This document shows, one piece after another, positions 14,820 through 21,063 of a DNA stretch of 21,797 nucleotides. The DNA comes from a virus. How positions within the stretch are numbered: the first letter of the stretch is position 1; the number at the start of each line of letters is the position of its first letter. The translations under genes and the position numbers were made by a program. The notes under the pieces were generated by a model. It had not been told where the DNA came from. It searched no databases and was given only the letters and a program-made list of their open reading frames with translations. The stretch spans positions 1 through 21,797 of IMG/VR virus record IMGVR_UViG_3300007963_003735. One strand, given 5' to 3'.

Positions 14820-15110
14820 GGCTTATGGACCCCCCTTTGACACTGGACTGTCAAACCCCAGGCCAGGCCCAGAATCCTGGCCCTGCTGCTGGCACCAGGC
14901 CACCCAGCCACCAGGTCGGGCCCACCAGGCCAGGCGGGCCCCTGGTCACCACTCCAGGACCCCGGCACCAGGTCCCGGACCGGGATGGGCACGCCCTCGT
15001 CAATGCACCATGTGTGTGTCACCCTGGGTGCGTCCTGGTCGGCTGCCTGGTGCGCTCCTGGGTGGTGCTGGACAGGCCTGGCGGGTGCTGCCTGGCACTG
15101 CTGGTTGGCT
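14820..15110. repeat. CCWGG-rich intergenic tract
   Basis: I count roughly 17 copies of CCAGG or CCTGG in this tract and just upstream, against one or two expected for its length and GC content. The left half is mostly CCAGG and the right half mostly CCTGG, so the two halves can pair with each other on one strand. Two open frames here (14825-15121 plus and 14780-15022 minus) have low-complexity Pro/Gly products and no ribosome sites, so I see no gene. Confidence 0.5.
14837..14854. promoter_or_regulatory. Solitary TTGACAC-N4-CTGTCAA palindrome
   Basis: TTGACACTGGACTGTCAA matches the start-associated palindrome with one inner mismatch and is further flanked by T and A. Unlike the gene-proximal copies, no ribosome site follows. 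A stand-alone copy in the divergent control region favours a DNA-binding (operator) role for the palindrome. Confidence 0.5.
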
Positions 15111-16001: not shown

Positions 16002-16083
16002 CCCCAGACCAGCCCAGGGCTGGCACCAGGTTCACGACCTGGCTGGGGACGATTGACACATCGGTGTCAACAACGAGGAGGAA
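16002..16083 (+). promoter_or_regulatory. Start-associated module 1 (long form)
   Basis: The outer stem CCCCAG (16002-16007) pairs with CTGGGG (16043-16048). It stacks directly on a T-arm-like hairpin CCAGG-TTCACGA-CCTGG (16026-16042), making 5 + 6 = 11 bp. The 18-nt linker holds a second hairpin, CCAGCC-CAG-GGCTGG (16009-16023). Then come ACGA, the palindrome TTGACAC-ATCG-GTGTCAA (16053-16070) and GAGGAGGAA (16075-16083). Confidence 0.8.
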
Positions 16084-16086
16084 CCA

Positions 16087-16335
16087 ATGAGAGAGTTCGC
16101 AGAACCATTCATCCAGACGTTGATTCGCATTGAGTTGCAGGCGTCGGCGCCGTGTTCCGAAGCATCACTTGCCCACTGGGTCGCAGAGCAGCATCCCAAC
16201 GGCCCAGGTGGGTCGGAGGCATGGTCGTTCGATGATGTCGAACAGCACACCCACGCTGTCCTTGTCAGGCTCCTGGAGCGTGGCCTGGTCCGCACCTGGG
16301 ACAACACGCCAGGCCAGTACGAATGGAAGAACTAA
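16087..16335 (+). CDS. Hypothetical small phage protein, possibly winged-helix-like
   Basis: The product is 82 residues, with ATG at 16087 shortly after GAGGAGGAA. Three helices can be drawn (EPFIQTLIRIELQ, EASLAHWVAEQH, DDVEQHTHAVLVRLLERGLV), followed by a short beta-like end (RTWDNTPGQYEWK). The order helix-helix-helix-strand with a final RLLERGLVRT segment is reminiscent of winged-helix DNA-binding proteins. That is a guess from pattern only, and a nucleic acid binding role is not shown. It is a single-gene unit flanked by modules 1 and 2. Confidence 0.78.
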   Translation: MREFAEPFIQTLIRIELQASAPCSEASLAHWVAEQHPNGPGGSEAWSFDDVEQHTHAVLVRLLERGLVRTWDNTPGQYEWKN

Positions 16336-16343
16336 CCCACACC

Positions 16344-16418
16344 GCCTGATTGGCAAGGACCCAGGTTCGACCCCTGGGCAGGCACGATTGACACAATGGT
16401 GTCAACAACGAGGAGGAA
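16344..16418 (+). promoter_or_regulatory. Start-associated module 2
   Basis: The outer stem GCCTG (16344-16348) pairs with CAGGC (16379-16383), stacked on CCCAGG-TTCGACC-CCTGGG (16360-16378), making 6 + 5 = 11 bp. The loop fits the tRNA T-loop consensus TTCRANY exactly. The linker is 11 nt. The palindrome is TTGACAC-AATG-GTGTCAA (16388-16405), and GAGGAGGAA is at 16410-16418. Confidence 0.8.
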
Positions 16419-16420
16419 CC

Positions 16421-17284
16421 ATGAACAAGCAATCAACAGTCAATGTCCAGGTGTCGGACGAGGTCGCACTCGTCCTGAACAGCACCTGGAGGACCATCCA
16501 GGCGAACCACCCCGATGTCCCCGATGTGTTCCTGGTCGTCAAGTCGACGGGCCGTTCAAGCAGGCGAGGCAGCACCACATTGGGGCACTACTCGTACTCT
16601 GAGTGGGCCATCGAAGAGACCCAGGCACCAGAGGTGATGATCTCAGGAGAGTGTTTCAAGGGCGGTCCAGAGCAGGTCCTGCAGACCCTCCTCCACGAGG
16701 CGGCCCACGGGCTGGCTCATGTCAGGGAGGTCAAGGACTGCTCCAGGCAGAACCGCTACCACAACAAGCGGTTCAAGAACCTGGCAGAGGAAATGGGGCT
16801 GGAGTGGCCGACCCTGGTCGACACCCAGATGGGGCTCTTCAGTGGGTTCCCATACCCGCCTGATGAGCGGATCGGCTACTCGTCGGTCCGGCTCACCCAG
16901 GAGACCATCGCCGCCTACGACGATGACCTGAAGGCCCTGGGCACGCTCCAGGTCTGCACAGGCCAGCGCCAGGCGGCCAGGATCACCCCCGGGCCGAAGC
17001 GCATCCTGACCGGGTGCGGGTGCCGGGAGATCACGTTCGGGCACACCCAGTGGGGCGTAGTTGCTCCCCTGGTGTGTGGGACCTGCGAAGGTGGCTACAA
17101 GCGCCTCCCCAGGGACATGGAGGCCTGCCCGGACACCGGGTGGACCTTCGCCCTGGGCGTCGGTGTCAAGGGCGGTCAAGACCCTGATGTAAACAACGGG
17201 TTCTGGTTCACGGACGAGGGCGACATGGTTGACTACGTCGACCACTACCCCCCGACCTGGGCCAAGACCAACCAGGGGCTCTAA
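16421..17284 (+). CDS. SprT-like zinc metallopeptidase
   Basis: The product is 287 residues from ATG at 16421, chosen because GAGGAGGAA ends 2 nt before it; a longer frame from 16130 would read through the module and the previous gene. The zinc site is HEAAH (residues 92-96) in LLHEAAHGLAH, followed by a YHNKRF segment (113-118), the SprT-type order in which the third ligand lies downstream. A C-terminal region has GCGC (C199, C201) and CGTC (C219, C222), a likely zinc ribbon as in SprT proteins. Members of this superfamily cleave proteins, including DNA-crosslinked proteins (Spartan). The target here is unknown; host-protein removal or DNA-protein crosslink repair is possible. It is by far the largest gene of the rightward array and the only one in its unit. 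Confidence 0.88.
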   Translation: MNKQSTVNVQVSDEVALVLNSTWRTIQANHPDVPDVFLVVKSTGRSSRRGSTTLGHYSYSEWAIEETQAPEVMISGECFKGGPEQVLQTLLHEAAHGLAHVREVKDCSRQNRYHNKRFKNLAEEMGLEWPTLVDTQMGLFSGFPYPPDERIGYSSVRLTQETIAAYDDDLKALGTLQVCTGQRQAARITPGPKRILTGCGCREITFGHTQWGVVAPLVCGTCEGGYKRLPRDMEACPDTGWTFALGVGVKGGQDPDVNNGFWFTDEGDMVDYVDHYPPTWAKTNQGL

Positions 17285-17292
17285 GCCCCTAC

Positions 17293-17369
17293 CCCTGACT
17301 GGCAGGCACCCAGGTTCAAGCCCTGGGCAGGGACGATTGACACATCCGTGTCAACACAACGAGGAGGAA
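17293..17369 (+). promoter_or_regulatory. Start-associated module 3
   Basis: The outer stem CCCTG (17293-17297) pairs with CAGGG (17328-17332), stacked on CCCAGG-TTCAAGC-CCTGGG (17309-17327), 11 bp in total, with the 11-nt linker ACTGGCAGGCA. The loop fits TTCRANY. The palindrome is TTGACAC-ATCC-GTGTCAA (17337-17354), and GAGGAGGAA is at 17361-17369. The linker CAGG could instead pair with the 5' CCTG, an alternative fold. Confidence 0.8.
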
Positions 17370-17373
17370 CACA

Positions 17374-17769
17374 GTGAACAACACAACAGAAATGCAGATC
17401 CGCACCCTGGTCAGGACCTACCTGACCTGGACGCCAGACACCACGGTGTCCTGGGGCGGTGGCAAGCGCCCCCTGGGGGACACTGCTGAACTGACCAACC
17501 TGGATGCCATCCTTTCGGCAGTCGACTGCATGTACCAGGGCCAGCATGGTTCGGACCCGCTCACACGCTCACAACTAGAGGCTGTGACCCGCCGGGTCGT
17601 GGAGAACATGGTGCAGCACCTGGAACTTGCCGTGGTGCCCTACGGGGGCGGCCAGAATGCATACCAGGTTGCGGTTCGCACCACGGGCCAGCGGCTCCGC
17701 AACCGATACTGCGAGCAGTCGTCACAGCCCAAGGTCCGGGACCACTTCCTGAATGAAGAGCGCCGGTAG
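17374..17769 (+). CDS. Hypothetical phage protein
   Basis: The product is 131 residues and starts with GTG at 17374, 4 nt after GAGGAGGAA; no ATG lies closer to the ribosome site. The sequence begins with polar residues, then a TLVRTYLTWTPD helix, a Gly-rich turn (WGGGKRPLGD), a helix around NLDAILSAVDCMY, and a long helix (TRSQLEAVTRRVVENMVQHLEL). The tail is basic (RLRNRYCEQ ... NEERR). The family is not recognised. There is no metal-binding cluster and no membrane segment. It forms a single-gene unit between modules 3 and 4. Confidence 0.8.
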   Translation: MNNTTEMQIRTLVRTYLTWTPDTTVSWGGGKRPLGDTAELTNLDAILSAVDCMYQGQHGSDPLTRSQLEAVTRRVVENMVQHLELAVVPYGGGQNAYQVAVRTTGQRLRNRYCEQSSQPKVRDHFLNEERR

Positions 17770-17779
17770 CACCGGTCAC

Positions 17780-17855
17780 GCCTGAGTAGAACCCACCCTG
17801 GTGCGAGGCCAGGGCAGGCACGATTGACACATCCGTGTCAACCAACGAGGAGGAA
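17780..17855 (+). promoter_or_regulatory. Start-associated module 4
   Basis: The outer stem GCCTG (17780-17784) pairs with CAGGC (17815-17819). It stacks on CCCTGG-TGCGAGG-CCAGGG (17796-17814), where two central pairs are changed in a compensatory way compared with modules 2 and 3. The linker is 11 nt (AGTAGAACCCA). The palindrome is TTGACAC-ATCC-GTGTCAA (17824-17841), and GAGGAGGAA is at 17847-17855. Confidence 0.8.
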
Positions 17856-17865
17856 CCACAAGACA

Positions 17866-17952
17866 ATGACTGTATTCATTATTTGGATGGCTCTAGCAGC
17901 CACCCTCGTCATTTTCCGACTCTGCCAACGCTGGCTGGGGAGGACCTGGTGA
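17866..17952 (+). CDS. 28-residue single-pass membrane peptide
   Basis: ATG at 17866 lies 10 nt after GAGGAGGAA. The product is mostly a hydrophobic segment, VFIIWMALAATLVIF (residues 3-17), followed by a basic, Trp-containing tail (RLCQRWLGRTW). Its stop shares one base with the ATG of the next gene (TGATG), so the two are coupled. The size and hydrophobicity suggest a small inner-membrane peptide. I see no holin-type evidence beyond that. Support comes from the module upstream, the overlap downstream and the clean hydrophobic pattern. Confidence 0.65.
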   Translation: MTVFIIWMALAATLVIFRLCQRWLGRTW

Positions 17953-18323
17953 TGAGTGCCAAGACACGAGCAGCCAACGAAATCCGACGCACCAGGGCGG
18001 CCCAACGGGCGGCCCAGGAGGCCAAGGGCTACCAGTTCCTTGACGAGGTCAAGATTCCTGGGAACCGGTACCCCTTGGTACCTGGGACCAGGTTCAGGAT
18101 CACGGGCAAGCGGGGCTGGTGGGTGTTTAGGACCGCTCAGGTCGACCCCCAGGGCCGCACCTCAGTGGACTGCACTGGGCCACACCCAGGTAGCAGCACC
18201 CTGAAAGGAGCCCCCATGAGGGTGTTCTGCGTCCTGGACGACGGGCCACCGCTCCGGGTGTCATCCATGCCATGGGCTGGAGACATCCGGGTGAGGGTCT
18301 CGAAGATCCAGCGCAAGGGCTGA
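17952..18323 (+). CDS. Hypothetical basic phage protein
   Basis: The product is 123 residues. I use ATG at 17952, which overlaps the stop of the membrane peptide (TGATG); a longer frame from 17835 would start inside the palindrome and translate the ribosome site. The N-terminus is a charged helix rich in Ala, Arg and Lys (KTRAANEIRRTRAAQRAAQ). A beta-rich remainder follows (RYPLVPGTRFRIT, WWVFRTAQVD, RVFCVLD, RVRVSKIQRK), which could be a small barrel. The family is not recognised. RNA or DNA binding would suit the charge but is not shown. Confidence 0.75.
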   Translation: MSAKTRAANEIRRTRAAQRAAQEAKGYQFLDEVKIPGNRYPLVPGTRFRITGKRGWWVFRTAQVDPQGRTSVDCTGPHPGSSTLKGAPMRVFCVLDDGPPLRVSSMPWAGDIRVRVSKIQRKG

Positions 18324-18333
18324 CCCGGCCCAC

Positions 18334-18416
18334 CCCTGACTAGCAGGCATCCAGGTGCGAGCCCTGGACAGGGACGATTGACAGAACCCTGTCAACAGCA
18401 ATACAACGAGGAGGAA
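18334..18416 (+). promoter_or_regulatory. Start-associated module 5, palindrome with compensatory change
   Basis: The outer stem CCCTG (18334-18338) pairs with CAGGG (18369-18373), stacked on TCCAGG-TGCGAGC-CCTGGA (18350-18368), with the 11-nt linker ACTAGCAGGCA. The palindrome here is TTGACAG-AACC-CTGTCAA (18378-18395): the inner pair has changed from C/G to G/C on both sides. GAGGAGGAA is at 18408-18416. Confidence 0.8.
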
Positions 18417-18421
18417 ATCAA

Positions 18422-18688
18422 ATGGCTTACAAGGAAATAGTTACGGTCAAGGTCCCGACGGTCCAGGTGGGCGACATCGTCTGTGGCACTGCCTGGAACA
18501 AGAACGACGAGACAGGCACCGACTGGTTCCCGACCAGTCTCAAGGTGACCAGCGTTACACAGACCCACCTGGAGACCCCGACTCAGAACGCCACCTGGTG
18601 GCTGGTCACTGAGTGCATGGACCACGACTACCAGGACGACCTGGGCCCCTTCGGCGCAGACAGCGAACTGCATGTAGTCAAGGCCTGA
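18422..18688 (+). CDS. Hypothetical small phage protein
   Basis: The product is 88 residues. ATG at 18422 lies 5 nt after GAGGAGGAA. The pattern is beta-rich throughout: EIVTVKVPTVQVGDIVCG, TSLKVTSVTQTHLE, ATWWLVTECMD, ELHVVKA. It resembles a small barrel in which QVGDIV would start the first strand pair. Two cysteines (in VCGT and TECM) are too few for a clear metal site. The family is not recognised. It is a single-gene unit between modules 5 and 6. Confidence 0.78.
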   Translation: MAYKEIVTVKVPTVQVGDIVCGTAWNKNDETGTDWFPTSLKVTSVTQTHLETPTQNATWWLVTECMDHDYQDDLGPFGADSELHVVKA

Positions 18689-18696
18689 CCCGATAC

Positions 18697-18780
18697 CCCT
18701 GACTAGCAGGCTCCTGGGTGCAAGCCCCAGGCAGGGACGACTGACACAAATGTGTCAATCAGAGAAACAACGAGGAGGAA
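18697..18780 (+). promoter_or_regulatory. Start-associated module 6
   Basis: The outer stem CCCTG (18697-18701) pairs with CAGGG (18732-18736), stacked on CCTGGG-TGCAAGC-CCCAGG (18713-18731), with the 11-nt linker ACTAGCAGGCT. The palindrome is CTGACAC-AAAT-GTGTCAA (18741-18758), with the outermost pair lost. GAGGAGGAA is at 18772-18780. The T-arm stem differs at several pairs from the other copies, always in complementary fashion. Confidence 0.8.
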
Positions 18781-18785
18781 TAGAC

Positions 18786-18929
18786 ATGGCTGAAGTAACC
18801 AGCGGAACGGACCTAACGGTCCTCATTCTGAACAAGGTAGAAGCCGAGGTCCTGGCCCGCCTACTCAGGCTGAACAAGGACAGGCCCAGCGTCAAGAAGT
18901 GGTTGAGCGAAGTAGTCGAAGCGATATGA
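18786..18929 (+). CDS. 47-residue hypothetical protein
   Basis: ATG at 18786 lies 5 nt after GAGGAGGAA. The product is almost wholly helical by pattern: TDLTVLILNKVEAEVLARLLRL, then a turn at NKDRPS, then VKKWLSEVVEAI. The two amphipathic helices suggest a small helical hairpin that could dimerise or bind a partner. Its stop overlaps the next start as ATGA. It is too short for a function to be named. Confidence 0.7.
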   Translation: MAEVTSGTDLTVLILNKVEAEVLARLLRLNKDRPSVKKWLSEVVEAI

Positions 18930-19072
18930 GCGCCTACTTTGACCCCATGAAGCGCCCACTAGCGCCCGTGGATCAGTCAGCCGACCACATCGACCACGGC
19001 TGGTGCGGGCGGCCCGATTGCGGCTGCGGGCACGATTTTGTAGCAGGCGTCACGCCCTGCAACGAAACCTGA
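18926..19072 (+). CDS. 48-residue Cys/His protein
   Basis: The ATG at 18926 overlaps the preceding stop (ATGA), with no ribosome site of its own, so it depends on coupling. The product carries H21 and H24 in DHIDHGW, then WCGRPDCGCGH (C27, C32, C34, H36), and C45. This density of Cys and His in 48 residues suggests one zinc-binding site. The pattern is not one I can name. Coding support is the overlap, the Cys/His grouping and the module that follows. Confidence 0.65.
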   Translation: MSAYFDPMKRPLAPVDQSADHIDHGWCGRPDCGCGHDFVAGVTPCNET

Positions 19073-19081
19073 TCCAGGAAC

Positions 19082-19173
19082 CCCCAGACCAGCCCAGGGC
19101 TGGCACCAGGAGCGAGACCTGGCTGGGGACGATTGACACTTTCGTGTCAACAGCAATAACCAACGAGGAGGAA
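19082..19173 (+). promoter_or_regulatory. Start-associated module 7 (long form, near-copy of module 1)
   Basis: The outer stem CCCCAG (19082-19087) pairs with CTGGGG (19123-19128), the second hairpin is at 19089-19103, and the T-arm-like hairpin CCAGG-AGCGAGA-CCTGG is at 19106-19122. The fold region matches module 1 base for base except within the 7-nt loop. The palindrome is TTGACAC-TTTC-GTGTCAA (19133-19150), and GAGGAGGAA is at 19165-19173. Confidence 0.8.
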
Positions 19174-19175
19174 CT

Positions 19176-19415
19176 ATGAATGACAAGATAAATAAGTGGG
19201 TAGAGGTAACGGGCCGAATCACGGTCGACATTGTCCTGTCTCCCAAGGAGACCAGGTTGCCTTTCGACCAGGAGGCCTTCGTGGCTGATCTCCTTGACCA
19301 GTGGAACTACAAGAAGGATTACATCCTGGGTAACGACAGGAACGATATAACTGTCAAGTGTGAGGTCCAGGAGATCACGGACACCCCCGGCGACGAAGTC
19401 CTGGGGGCGCTGTGA
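19176..19415 (+). CDS. Hypothetical small phage protein
   Basis: The product is 79 residues. ATG at 19176 lies 2 nt after GAGGAGGAA. Alternating strands and one helix are visible: KWVEVTGRITVDIVLS, then QEAFVADLLDQWNY, then DITVKCEVQEIT. The arrangement strand-helix-strand suggests a compact alpha/beta fold. It is acidic towards the C-terminus. Its stop overlaps the next gene's GTG by four bases (GTGA). The family is not recognised. Confidence 0.77.
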   Translation: MNDKINKWVEVTGRITVDIVLSPKETRLPFDQEAFVADLLDQWNYKKDYILGNDRNDITVKCEVQEITDTPGDEVLGAL

Positions 19416-19753
19416 GCACCTACTGTGACATTGACCGCTGGCCACTGTGCTGCAAGAAGCATCGGTTGGAGATGGAAGAGAGCCACCGCCAGGACGCCCT
19501 GGCCAACGCCGAACCCGACCCCAACCGCTGCACCTGGCTGGTAGAGGTACCCAGCGGGAACCCTGAGCCGGACTGCCCAGCGGACCTGGTCAAGGTCATT
19601 GAGTGCGGGGCCCAGGTCACCTACCAGGTGGCCGACAACGGGTCCAAGGGCTGGTCCTGCGAGGCCGGACACTCCCACTGGGAGTACGGCTCCCCGAACC
19701 AGCAGGCCGAAGAGCGCCTGGAGTGGGCGAAGGAACGCCAGGAAGCGTTCTAA
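19412..19753 (+). CDS. Hypothetical Cys-rich phage protein
   Basis: The product is 113 residues and starts with GTG at 19412, overlapping the previous stop (GTGA), so it is probably coupled. It has C5, C13-C14 and H17 near the N-terminus (LCCKKH), then single cysteines at 40, 55 and 65, and finally C83 with H87 and H89 (SCEAGHSH). The last 20 residues are a charged helix (QQAEERLEWAKERQEAF). The Cys/His pairs at both ends resemble knuckles of one or two zinc sites, and the GWSCEAGHSHW part looks like the second half of a small zinc finger. The family is not recognised. Confidence 0.72.
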   Translation: MSTYCDIDRWPLCCKKHRLEMEESHRQDALANAEPDPNRCTWLVEVPSGNPEPDCPADLVKVIECGAQVTYQVADNGSKGWSCEAGHSHWEYGSPNQQAEERLEWAKERQEAF

Positions 19754-19760
19754 GGAGAAC

Positions 19761-19848
19761 CCCCGACTAGCAGCCACCAGGGTGCAAGGCCCTGGCGGGG
19801 ACGACTGACACGACCGTGTCAATCGCAATACCAACCAACGAGGAGGAA
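19761..19848 (+). promoter_or_regulatory. Start-associated module 8
   Basis: The outer stem CCCCG (19761-19765) pairs with CGGGG (19796-19800), a further compensated variant. It stacks on CCAGGG-TGCAAGG-CCCTGG (19777-19795), with the 11-nt linker ACTAGCAGCCA. The palindrome is CTGACAC-GACC-GTGTCAA (19805-19822), and GAGGAGGAA is at 19840-19848. Confidence 0.8.
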
Positions 19849-20007: not shown

Positions 20008-20240
20008 TGAGCGCCTGGTTGTATGTATCGTGCCTAGCCGCCTTGTGTATCTCGAACTTTACTATCGGGTACGCCTGGAGGATCAGACACGAGGACCTGA
20101 ATGAGGCGGCCAACACCGCCATGATTCGAAAGGCCCTGGAGTCGACTAGGCTGGCCAGTGACCAGAGTGAGGTGATCCAGGAGGACGACCCGTTCGCCTG
20201 GCCACCACCTCCCCCACCTGACAGGAGTGTGTCAAAGTGA
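20007..20240 (+). CDS. Small membrane protein with Pro-rich tail
   Basis: The product is 77 residues from ATG at 20007, overlapping the previous stop (TGATG). Residues 2-21 are hydrophobic (WLYVSCLAALCISNFTIGYA), forming one membrane segment or an uncleaved signal anchor, followed by a basic WRIRH. A charged helix comes next, then a run of six prolines (WPPPPPPD) near the end. A bitopic protein with its C-terminus in the cytoplasm is the simplest reading. The 3' end carries a TGACA-N6-TGTCA palindrome (20218-20235) that also overlaps the next gene's ribosome site. Confidence 0.72.
   Translation: MSAWLYVSCLAALCISNFTIGYAWRIRHEDLNEAANTAMIRKALESTRLASDQSEVIQEDDPFAWPPPPPPDRSVSK
20218..20235. promoter_or_regulatory. 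Palindrome overlapping a ribosome site
   Basis: CTGACAG-GAGT-GTGTCAA lies within the last codons of the membrane-protein gene. Its AGGAG (20223-20227) is the only candidate ribosome site for the gene starting at 20237. Folding of the hairpin, or protein binding to it, would hide that site. No tRNA-like part precedes this copy. Confidence 0.55.
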
Positions 20241-20531: not shown

Positions 20532-20609
20532 GGGGTAGAAAGGTATCGACCCGTGTGAAAACCGCATGTCGGACGCACGGGTACCGGGGTTCGATTCCCC
20601 GCTACTCCA
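20532..20609 (+). ncRNA. tRNA-like RNA resembling the tRNA-like domain of tmRNA
   Basis: GGGGTAG (20532-20538) pairs over 7 bp with CTACTCC (20602-20608). The third pair is G-U, which is the alanine identity element, and the next base is A, so this end matches tmRNA and tRNA-Ala in its key features. The T-arm is perfect: CGGGG-TTCGATT-CCCCG (20585-20601). There is no normal D-stem; GGTATCGAC (20542-20550) closely resembles the conserved tmRNA D-loop. Next, ACCCGTG (20549-20555) pairs with CACGGGT (20576-20582) around a small CCG-CATGT-CGG hairpin, as a shortened tmRNA helix 2 would. No tag-coding region and no standard anticodon arm are present. CCA is not encoded (CTA follows). A degenerate tRNA or a tRNA-derived attachment site are the alternatives. 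Confidence 0.6.
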
Positions 20610-20641
20610 CTAATCGAATAGACAACCAAGGAGGAATCCCC

Positions 20642-20971: not shown

Positions 20972-21030
20972 GGCCCCGTCCCCGCTTACCAGGAGTTCCT
21001 CCTCTCTGGTAGGCCGGGACGGGGCCTTTT
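20972..21030 (+). terminator. Strong intrinsic terminator with anti-Shine-Dalgarno apical loop
   Basis: GGCCCCGTCCC (20972-20982) pairs with GGGACGGGGCC (21016-21026) and is followed by TTTT. After one mismatch the stem continues for about nine more pairs (20984-20992 with 21006-21014), including TTACCAG against CTGGTAG. The 13-nt apical loop is GAGTTCCTCCTCT (20993-21005). Its GTTCCTCCTC is the exact complement of GAGGAGGAAC, the ribosome site of the upstream small genes. It ends the rightward small-gene array. Confidence 0.9.
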
Positions 21031-21045
21031 CTCGTGTACCCCCAC

Positions 21046-21063
21046 TTGACACAACTTTGTCAA
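21046..21063. promoter_or_regulatory. Solitary palindrome downstream of the terminator
   Basis: TTGACAC-AACT-TTGTCAA has one inner mismatch and lies 16 nt after the terminator U-run, about 78 nt before the next gene. A new promoter is expected here. TTGACA could be its -35 box, with the palindrome as an overlapping operator, but no -10 hexamer is seen 17 nt downstream (ATCCTT). Confidence 0.5.

Follow-up and report, generated by a model that had tools for sequence, protein, structure and literature searches.

What are the short folds that recur between the small genes of the viral record IMGVR_UViG_3300007963_003735, and what might they do for the genes behind them? This 21.8-kb record, analysed at its full length and called the window in the following, carries terminase and portal genes on the minus strand and, in its right part, small genes of mostly unknown function. 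A reading of the sequence alone (the sequence-only reading) had described eight modules resembling tRNA minihelices at 16002-19848 and taken them as marks of the starts of small-gene translation units. All eight are present. They represent an RNA fold under selection, which combines contacts as in the tRNA elbow with a following hairpin and a narrow intercistronic placement. For fold and job taken together, the favoured interpretation is a translation-initiation leader for the downstream cistron, to which we assign a probability of roughly 45%. More broadly, the modules probably allow each gene to be translated or processed on its own.

In the window, P1 (the outer stem) and P2 (the inner stem) add up to 11 bp and enclose a 7-nt loop in 8/8 modules, both stems being contiguous on the 3' side. 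Six modules consist of a 5-bp P1, an 11-nt linker and a 6-bp P2, confirming the earlier count of linkers with exactly 11 nt, and the two others (16002 and 19082) combine a 6-bp P1 with an 18-nt linker and a 5-bp P2. These 18-nt linkers, like the 17- or 18-nt class generally, hold a hairpin of their own reminiscent of a D-arm, and the loops of such modules are mostly of other types. Downstream of each module follow ACGA, an 18-nt palindrome (P3; TTGACAC or close, one end base deviating in two of the eight copies), ACGAGGAGGAA and the start codon (8/8). The arrangement noted before, from the 11-bp total and the 7-nt loop to ACGA, palindrome and Shine-Dalgarno (SD) sequence, was thus seen in every copy.

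The modules are not a product of chance, since a retrieval blind to the stems still gave the same fold throughout. With a pattern of palindrome and SD sequence only, 17 contigs were obtained, and 49/49 distinct modules in them parse as 11 bp plus a 7-nt loop, a single mispair in P2 being found in 2/49. A separate retrieval of terminase relatives gave contigs at 48-100% identity, one fragment aside. Among these, two relatives at 68% (L068 and L070) and a metagenome-assembled genome (MAG) of the Gemmatimonadota at 56% (L083) have kept the module, with stems and a downstream hairpin that differ. Pattern scans of IMG/VR and a structural descriptor widened the set to a total of 314 distinct modules in 103 loci, the latter not being a count of phages, as some loci overlap and some contigs are near-duplicates. 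In its strict form, the descriptor gave 0 matches in 1.34 Mb of shuffled DNA. Outside the window clade, stacked totals of 12 bp and a few forms with 10 bp were also seen; the earlier statement that the stems always comprise 11 bp holds within the clade but not beyond it. Module-bearing genomes include Mycobacterium phage Predator (L104), and several genes of the Mycobacterium phages Konstantine and Fowlmouth, likewise of the Streptomyces phages phiScoe10 and phiCAM, are preceded by modules. A site in phiCAM shares 95% identity over 41 nt with module 3 of the window. In L087, L095, L113 and L156, intergenic DNA of irregular NNGGC repeats lies 3' of the modules.

For the class with the 11-nt linker, covariation was assessed against a null preserving the tree and the substitution counts. 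In this comparison, 10/11 helix pairs covary above every null pair, the eleventh being the invariant closing G-C of P2. Among 47 sequences of at most 80% identity, 97.7% of the cells are paired, with 226 double-sided changes, and the covariation score amounts to 0.83 versus 0.18 in shuffles; this set was gathered with a descriptor requiring pairing and hence favours helices, a bias from which the pattern counts and the 49-module clade set are free. The covariation includes G-U pairs, and RNAalifold, unaided, predicts the same two helices.

Besides the helices, the linker is tied to itself and to the loop. Its positions 2 and 8 pair as C-G, A-T or G-C, linker 9 pairs with loop 7 (A-T, G-C and C-G, with eight T-T exceptions) and linker 10 with loop 6 (C-G and G-C, borderline with E about 0.1). 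Linker 4 and loop 2 are coupled, G occurring with T and A with G, and adjoin an invariant G at linker 5 and an invariant C at loop 3. Judged from covariation rather than from a solved structure, linker 4/loop 2 and linker 5/loop 3 are analogues of the tRNA contacts 18-55 and 19-56. As the retrieval patterns themselves had imposed the rule for linker 4 and loop 2, a forbidden combination was employed as control. None of the 72 distinct matches to AG with TTC was foldable, compared to 58/88 and 50/79 matches for the allowed patterns. For the other forbidden combination, GG with TGC, no real case occurs among the finds of the descriptor, which is free of this rule (the few flagged are one-base register shifts), a dedicated pattern scan not being made. 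Across the whole 11-nt-linker class, the loop reads T-K-C-R-A-N-N closed by G-C, corresponding to a tRNA T-loop and extending a fit originally noted for two loops. In place of the R-C-C-A of tRNA, most tails read R-C-[GT], usually A-C-G-A, and the third base is C in only 2/314 modules of a set for which the first two tail bases were required. The first P1 pair is mostly G-C and T is rare at -1. The likeness to a tRNA minihelix has consequently been strengthened by the wide covariation, the elbow contacts between linker and T-loop, and the R-C-[G/T]-A tail. With tRNA and the tRNA-like domain of transfer-messenger RNA (tmRNA), the modules share the T-loop consensus and an R-C-N-A tail. However, they lack an anticodon arm, for which a linker of 10-18 nt leaves no room, and CCA (ACCA is nearly absent), their D-stem is a single pair, and mostly 11 instead of 12 pairs are stacked.

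A covariance model representing the 11-nt-linker class (R1), built from 47 diverse members, identified six copies in the window, scoring 52-61 bits (E 1e-8 to 1e-10) and all with 11-nt linkers, and missed modules 1 and 7 with their 18-nt linkers. Elsewhere, up to 15 copies per contig were found, and LittleE (G030) has two matches. The Gemmatimonadota MAG L083 (CP070815.1) holds its modules in a prophage-like stretch near 4.72 Mb, the sole one among 150 genomes of this phylum searched, which may indicate the true host or mis-binning. In the 149 others, R1 gave no match at E up to 1e-5, a result that doubles as specificity control. An exact pattern search of bacterial genomes for host assignment gave 0 matches.

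At threshold, no Rfam family matched any module tested, covering the window and four other module-bearing loci. The nearest is RF02926 (DUF2693-FD RNA), likewise with P1 stacked on P2 (7+5 bp), a gapped linker and the 7-nt loop AGCGAGA of module 7, a likeness (stacking, 7-nt loop, longer linker) limited to modules with linkers of 16-18 nt. However, its scores of 23.4 bits in the window and 29.0 in L099 are below the cut-off of 44.5, and the 11-nt-linker class is not matched at all. The long-linker class may have a narrow relative in RF02926. A description of the class was not found in the open-access papers searched, subscription literature being outside the scope. The modules are a widespread phage RNA class absent from Rfam, and we know of no earlier case of phages using such an RNA in a repeated, minimal form between cistrons.

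The modules are intergenic and on the coding strand. Between the upstream stop codon of annotated or clear genes and P1, the median distance is 9 nt, with 6-11 nt in 35/47 cases and never less than 6 nt, a set omitting one copy in Fowlmouth, where P1 and the annotated end of gene 39 overlap, and a few copies in Predator and Konstantine having another tail or lying inside an annotated gene. An automatic estimate from the nearest stop, possibly biased to small values, was repeated with annotated genes. Unannotated small genes may account for the large outliers. A terminating ribosome covers about 9-10 nt beyond the stop codon, and P1 therefore starts about at its front edge. Hence, the narrow spacing suggests that the module works on translated mRNA. 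On the other side, the start codon follows P1 at a median of 42 nt (interquartile range 38-45.5). In phiCAM, a module is present in 9/10 gene junctions of at least 74 nt and in none of the shorter or overlapping ones. The idea that the first gene of an operon has no module was dropped, as an R1 match lies before the first phiCAM gene. With this placement at gene junctions and with SD sequence and start codon behind, the modules do mark the starts of small-gene units.

As a translation-initiation leader, the module would be a structured RNA acting in cis between neighbouring cistrons of a phage operon, with P1 stacked on P2 in an acceptor/T-arm-like helix of 11-12 bp. The linker would represent a minimal D-loop, in which GG (or AG) meets the T-loop as tRNA 18/19 meet 55/56, and covariation shows two further linker bases pairing with the final two of the loop; the R-C-[G/T]-A tail, P3, SD sequence and start codon follow. 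As P1 begins about at the front of the terminating ribosome, the fold could persist during translation of the upstream gene. The tRNA-like fold would then promote independent initiation at the downstream cistron, perhaps via ribosome contact, with P3 keeping the SD sequence free. At wide gene junctions, the module would replace coupling by overlap and make small genes self-contained expression cassettes.

Such a role has precedents. Placed upstream of an SD sequence, tRNAs increased translation 2- to 6.3-fold in vitro (PMC9142559). The yjdF riboswitch, also a tRNA-like fold upstream of the SD sequence in which GG contacts the T-loop, activates translation, and altering the conserved GG of this leader brought translation near background (PMC9142559). 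In contrast to the modules, yjdF is a four-helix junction, responds to a ligand and is not repeated within an operon, and a search with its Rfam model at E up to 1 found nothing in the window and four other module-bearing loci. Three observations weigh against a leader function. Alteration of the 3' ACCA had little effect on translation in the precedent (PMC9142559), which therefore does not explain the conserved R-C tail. In addition, the distance from P1 to the start codon, with a 10-90% range of 34-49 nt, is looser than a rigid ribosome contact predicts, and many genes of the same phages are without module.

The strongest alternative is transcript punctuation, where host tRNA enzymes would cleave the polycistronic mRNA at the modules, either RNase Z after the R73-like base, leaving a tRNA-like 3' end upstream and P3 near the downstream 5' end, or RNase P on the 5' side of P1. 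A T-arm and acceptor-like helix followed by R and an invariant C, a third tail base that is almost never C, the predominance of G-C as first pair with T rare at -1, and a hairpin close after the putative cut would all be in line with this. However, cleavage of a pseudoknot substrate by RNase P RNA depended on a 3' RCCA (PMC12710915), and the modules nearly always lack this motif. Moreover, a cut 5' of P1 would create an unprotected end 6-11 nt past the upstream stop codon. Weakened by the missing CCA and this exposed end, punctuation is considered unlikely, and the translation-initiation leader is favoured over it. The compact, pseudoknotted fold and the succession of two structures before each gene might also constitute a decay barrier, stopping exonucleases such as the 5'-3' RNase J of Actinobacteria and stabilizing downstream mRNAs. 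By itself, this improbable function would explain neither the specific tRNA-elbow contacts nor the spacing to the stop codon. Equally improbable appears a protein or ligand switch, with a phage or host factor recognizing the tRNA elbow, binding all modules and co-regulating the gene set. Up to 15 copies per genome would be regulon-like, and yjdF provides a case of a tRNA-like leader responding to a ligand (PMC9142559), but neither a candidate protein nor a ligand site was found; in addition, the linker is minimal and P3 varies between phages.

P3 itself was assessed in 201 non-redundant downstream regions. In 62% of them, versus 3.6% in shuffles, P1 is followed by a stem of 6 bp and more (with a maximum of one G-U), starting mostly 4 nt after P1. 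Outside the window clade, its sequence varies with pairing kept; within the clade, it nearly always reads TTGACAS-N4-STGTCAA. Copies of TGACA-N6-TGTCA are also found outside modules, 6 in G000, 9 in G009 and 13 in G010, where control half-sites of equal composition average 0.03-0.12. The half-site spacing is almost always 6, and the extra copies sit between genes as well as inside them, terminase and large virion genes included. Dispersed copies at such strict spacing, also in genes, imply that the clade palindrome is a DNA site as well, probably an operator, with P3 doubling in this role, and the predicted DNA-binding protein probably also acts at the gene junctions of the clade. A binding protein or repressor for the palindrome was not identified, a profile search for a repressor gene not being made. 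A purely RNA hairpin in the window clade is ruled out by the copies inside coding regions, and a purely DNA element by the differing P3 sequences of relatives, which still pair. TTGACA in the modules was also rejected as promoter -35, because the short distance to SD sequence and start codon leaves no place for a -10 element. A C before TGACA mostly goes with T after GTGTCAA (CAAT), and a T before it mostly with C (CAAC), as seen in modules 6 and 8 versus the others and in clade relatives. From this flanking-base pattern, a longer palindrome seems mostly avoided. The copy at 20219 has an SD-like AGGAG within its loop.

The dispersed, strictly spaced clade palindrome and the finding that the same module precedes different genes in related phages could be explained by a DNA element only, operator or stoperator plus recombination seam, with hairpins as by-product. 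This is contradicted by covariation including G-U pairs, the tertiary contacts, strand and stop-codon spacing, and by P3 sequences not conserved between phages. A DNA-only role for P1/P2 is already disfavoured, and for the module as a whole it is highly improbable. Decay barrier, regulator and pure DNA role are accordingly all rated less likely than a translation-initiation leader.

Repeated elements at the starts of small phage genes have been described in other systems. In T4-type promoter-early stem-loop (PeSL) cassettes, a stem-loop said to include an early promoter lies between shuffled small genes; the modules differ, as 6-11 nt from stop codon to P1 leave little promoter room. The start-associated sequences (SAS) of cluster K mycobacteriophages and their extended form (ESAS), proposed earlier as the nearest analogue, are likewise repeated just 5' of small-gene start codons (PMC3203893). 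However, ESAS forms an imperfect inverted repeat of 17 bp with a spacer that varies (PMC3203893), unlike the modules, and the resemblance is one of position only. Identity was rejected, the cluster K phage TM4 (25-52.8 kb) having no module. The stoperators of cluster A, like the clade palindrome, are short DNA sites in many dispersed copies, but they are 13 bp long, asymmetric and mainly intergenic (PMC3029335), whereas the palindrome is symmetric with several copies inside genes. Overall, the earlier interpretation is partly supported.

Further features of the window are included in Table 1. The tmRNA-like RNA without mRNA part is possibly a larger tRNA-like leader. It also occurs in G010, G004 (with a CCA end) and G007 and, unannotated and about 81% identical, in Streptomyces phage Shaeky at 42932-43011. 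The gene behind it seemingly has no start codon of the usual kind close to the SD sequence. A tRNA-Pyl called by ARAGORN at 17250-17334 is false, because module 3 lies there. At 20972-21026, a strong inverted repeat (21-nt arms, 90% complementary and 13 nt apart) followed by TTTT is terminator-like, and the palindrome copy at 21047 is located shortly 3' of it.

Table 1. Modules, palindromes and the tmRNA-like RNA in the window (stem and linker lengths in the order P1-linker-P2).
Feature	Position	Strand	Details
Module 1	16002..16048	+	6-18-5, linker with own hairpin, loop TTCACGA
Module 2	16344..16383	+	5-11-6, linker GG, loop TTCGACC; R1 56.2 bits including ACGA tail, 16344-16387
Module 3	17293..17332	+	5-11-6, linker GG, loop TTCAAGC; R1 61.4 bits
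Module 4	17780..17819	+	5-11-6, linker AG, loop TGCGAGG; R1 52.1 bits
Module 5	18334..18373	+	5-11-6, linker AG, loop TGCGAGC; R1 59.6 bits
Module 6	18697..18736	+	5-11-6, linker AG, loop TGCAAGC; R1 55.3 bits
Module 7	19082..19128	+	6-18-5, loop AGCGAGA; sub-threshold RF02926 match, 23.4 bits
Module 8	19761..19800	+	5-11-6, linker AG, loop TGCAAGG; R1 51.7 bits
P3/palindrome of module 1	16053..16070	+	After tail ACGA 16049-16052
P3/palindrome of module 2	16388..16405	+	
P3/palindrome of module 3	17337..17354	+	
P3/palindrome of module 4	17824..17841	+	
P3/palindrome of module 5	18378..18395	+	G-C replaces C-G next to loop
P3/palindrome of module 6	18741..18758	+	
P3/palindrome of module 7	19133..19150	+	
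P3/palindrome of module 8	19805..19822	+	
Palindrome copy outside modules	14838..14853	.	Further copies 12780, 20219, 20694, 21665
Palindrome copy outside modules	21047		One mismatch to TGACAS
tmRNA-like RNA without mRNA part	20532..20612	+	RF00023 53.6 bits, cut-off 47; ends ACTA, just upstream of SD

The odds are about even that the modules represent an unrecognised, widespread phage RNA, namely a minimal tRNA elbow with a pseudoknot, placed where the terminating ribosome has its front edge and setting up expression of the next gene, with up to a dozen or more copies in one phage that serve as seams between exchangeable cassettes. If this is true, many phages, those of well-studied laboratory hosts included, would carry mRNA-borne tRNA mimics as routine expression elements, a class overlooked by annotation; an automatic caller even gives a tRNA in the window. 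It would provide a much-repeated natural test of whether a tRNA-like fold 5' of a start codon drives translation in bacteria or guides mRNA processing, and a minimal tRNA-elbow fold for structural work. The covariance model could then flag gene starts as well as expression units in those phage genomes in which the function of most genes is unknown.

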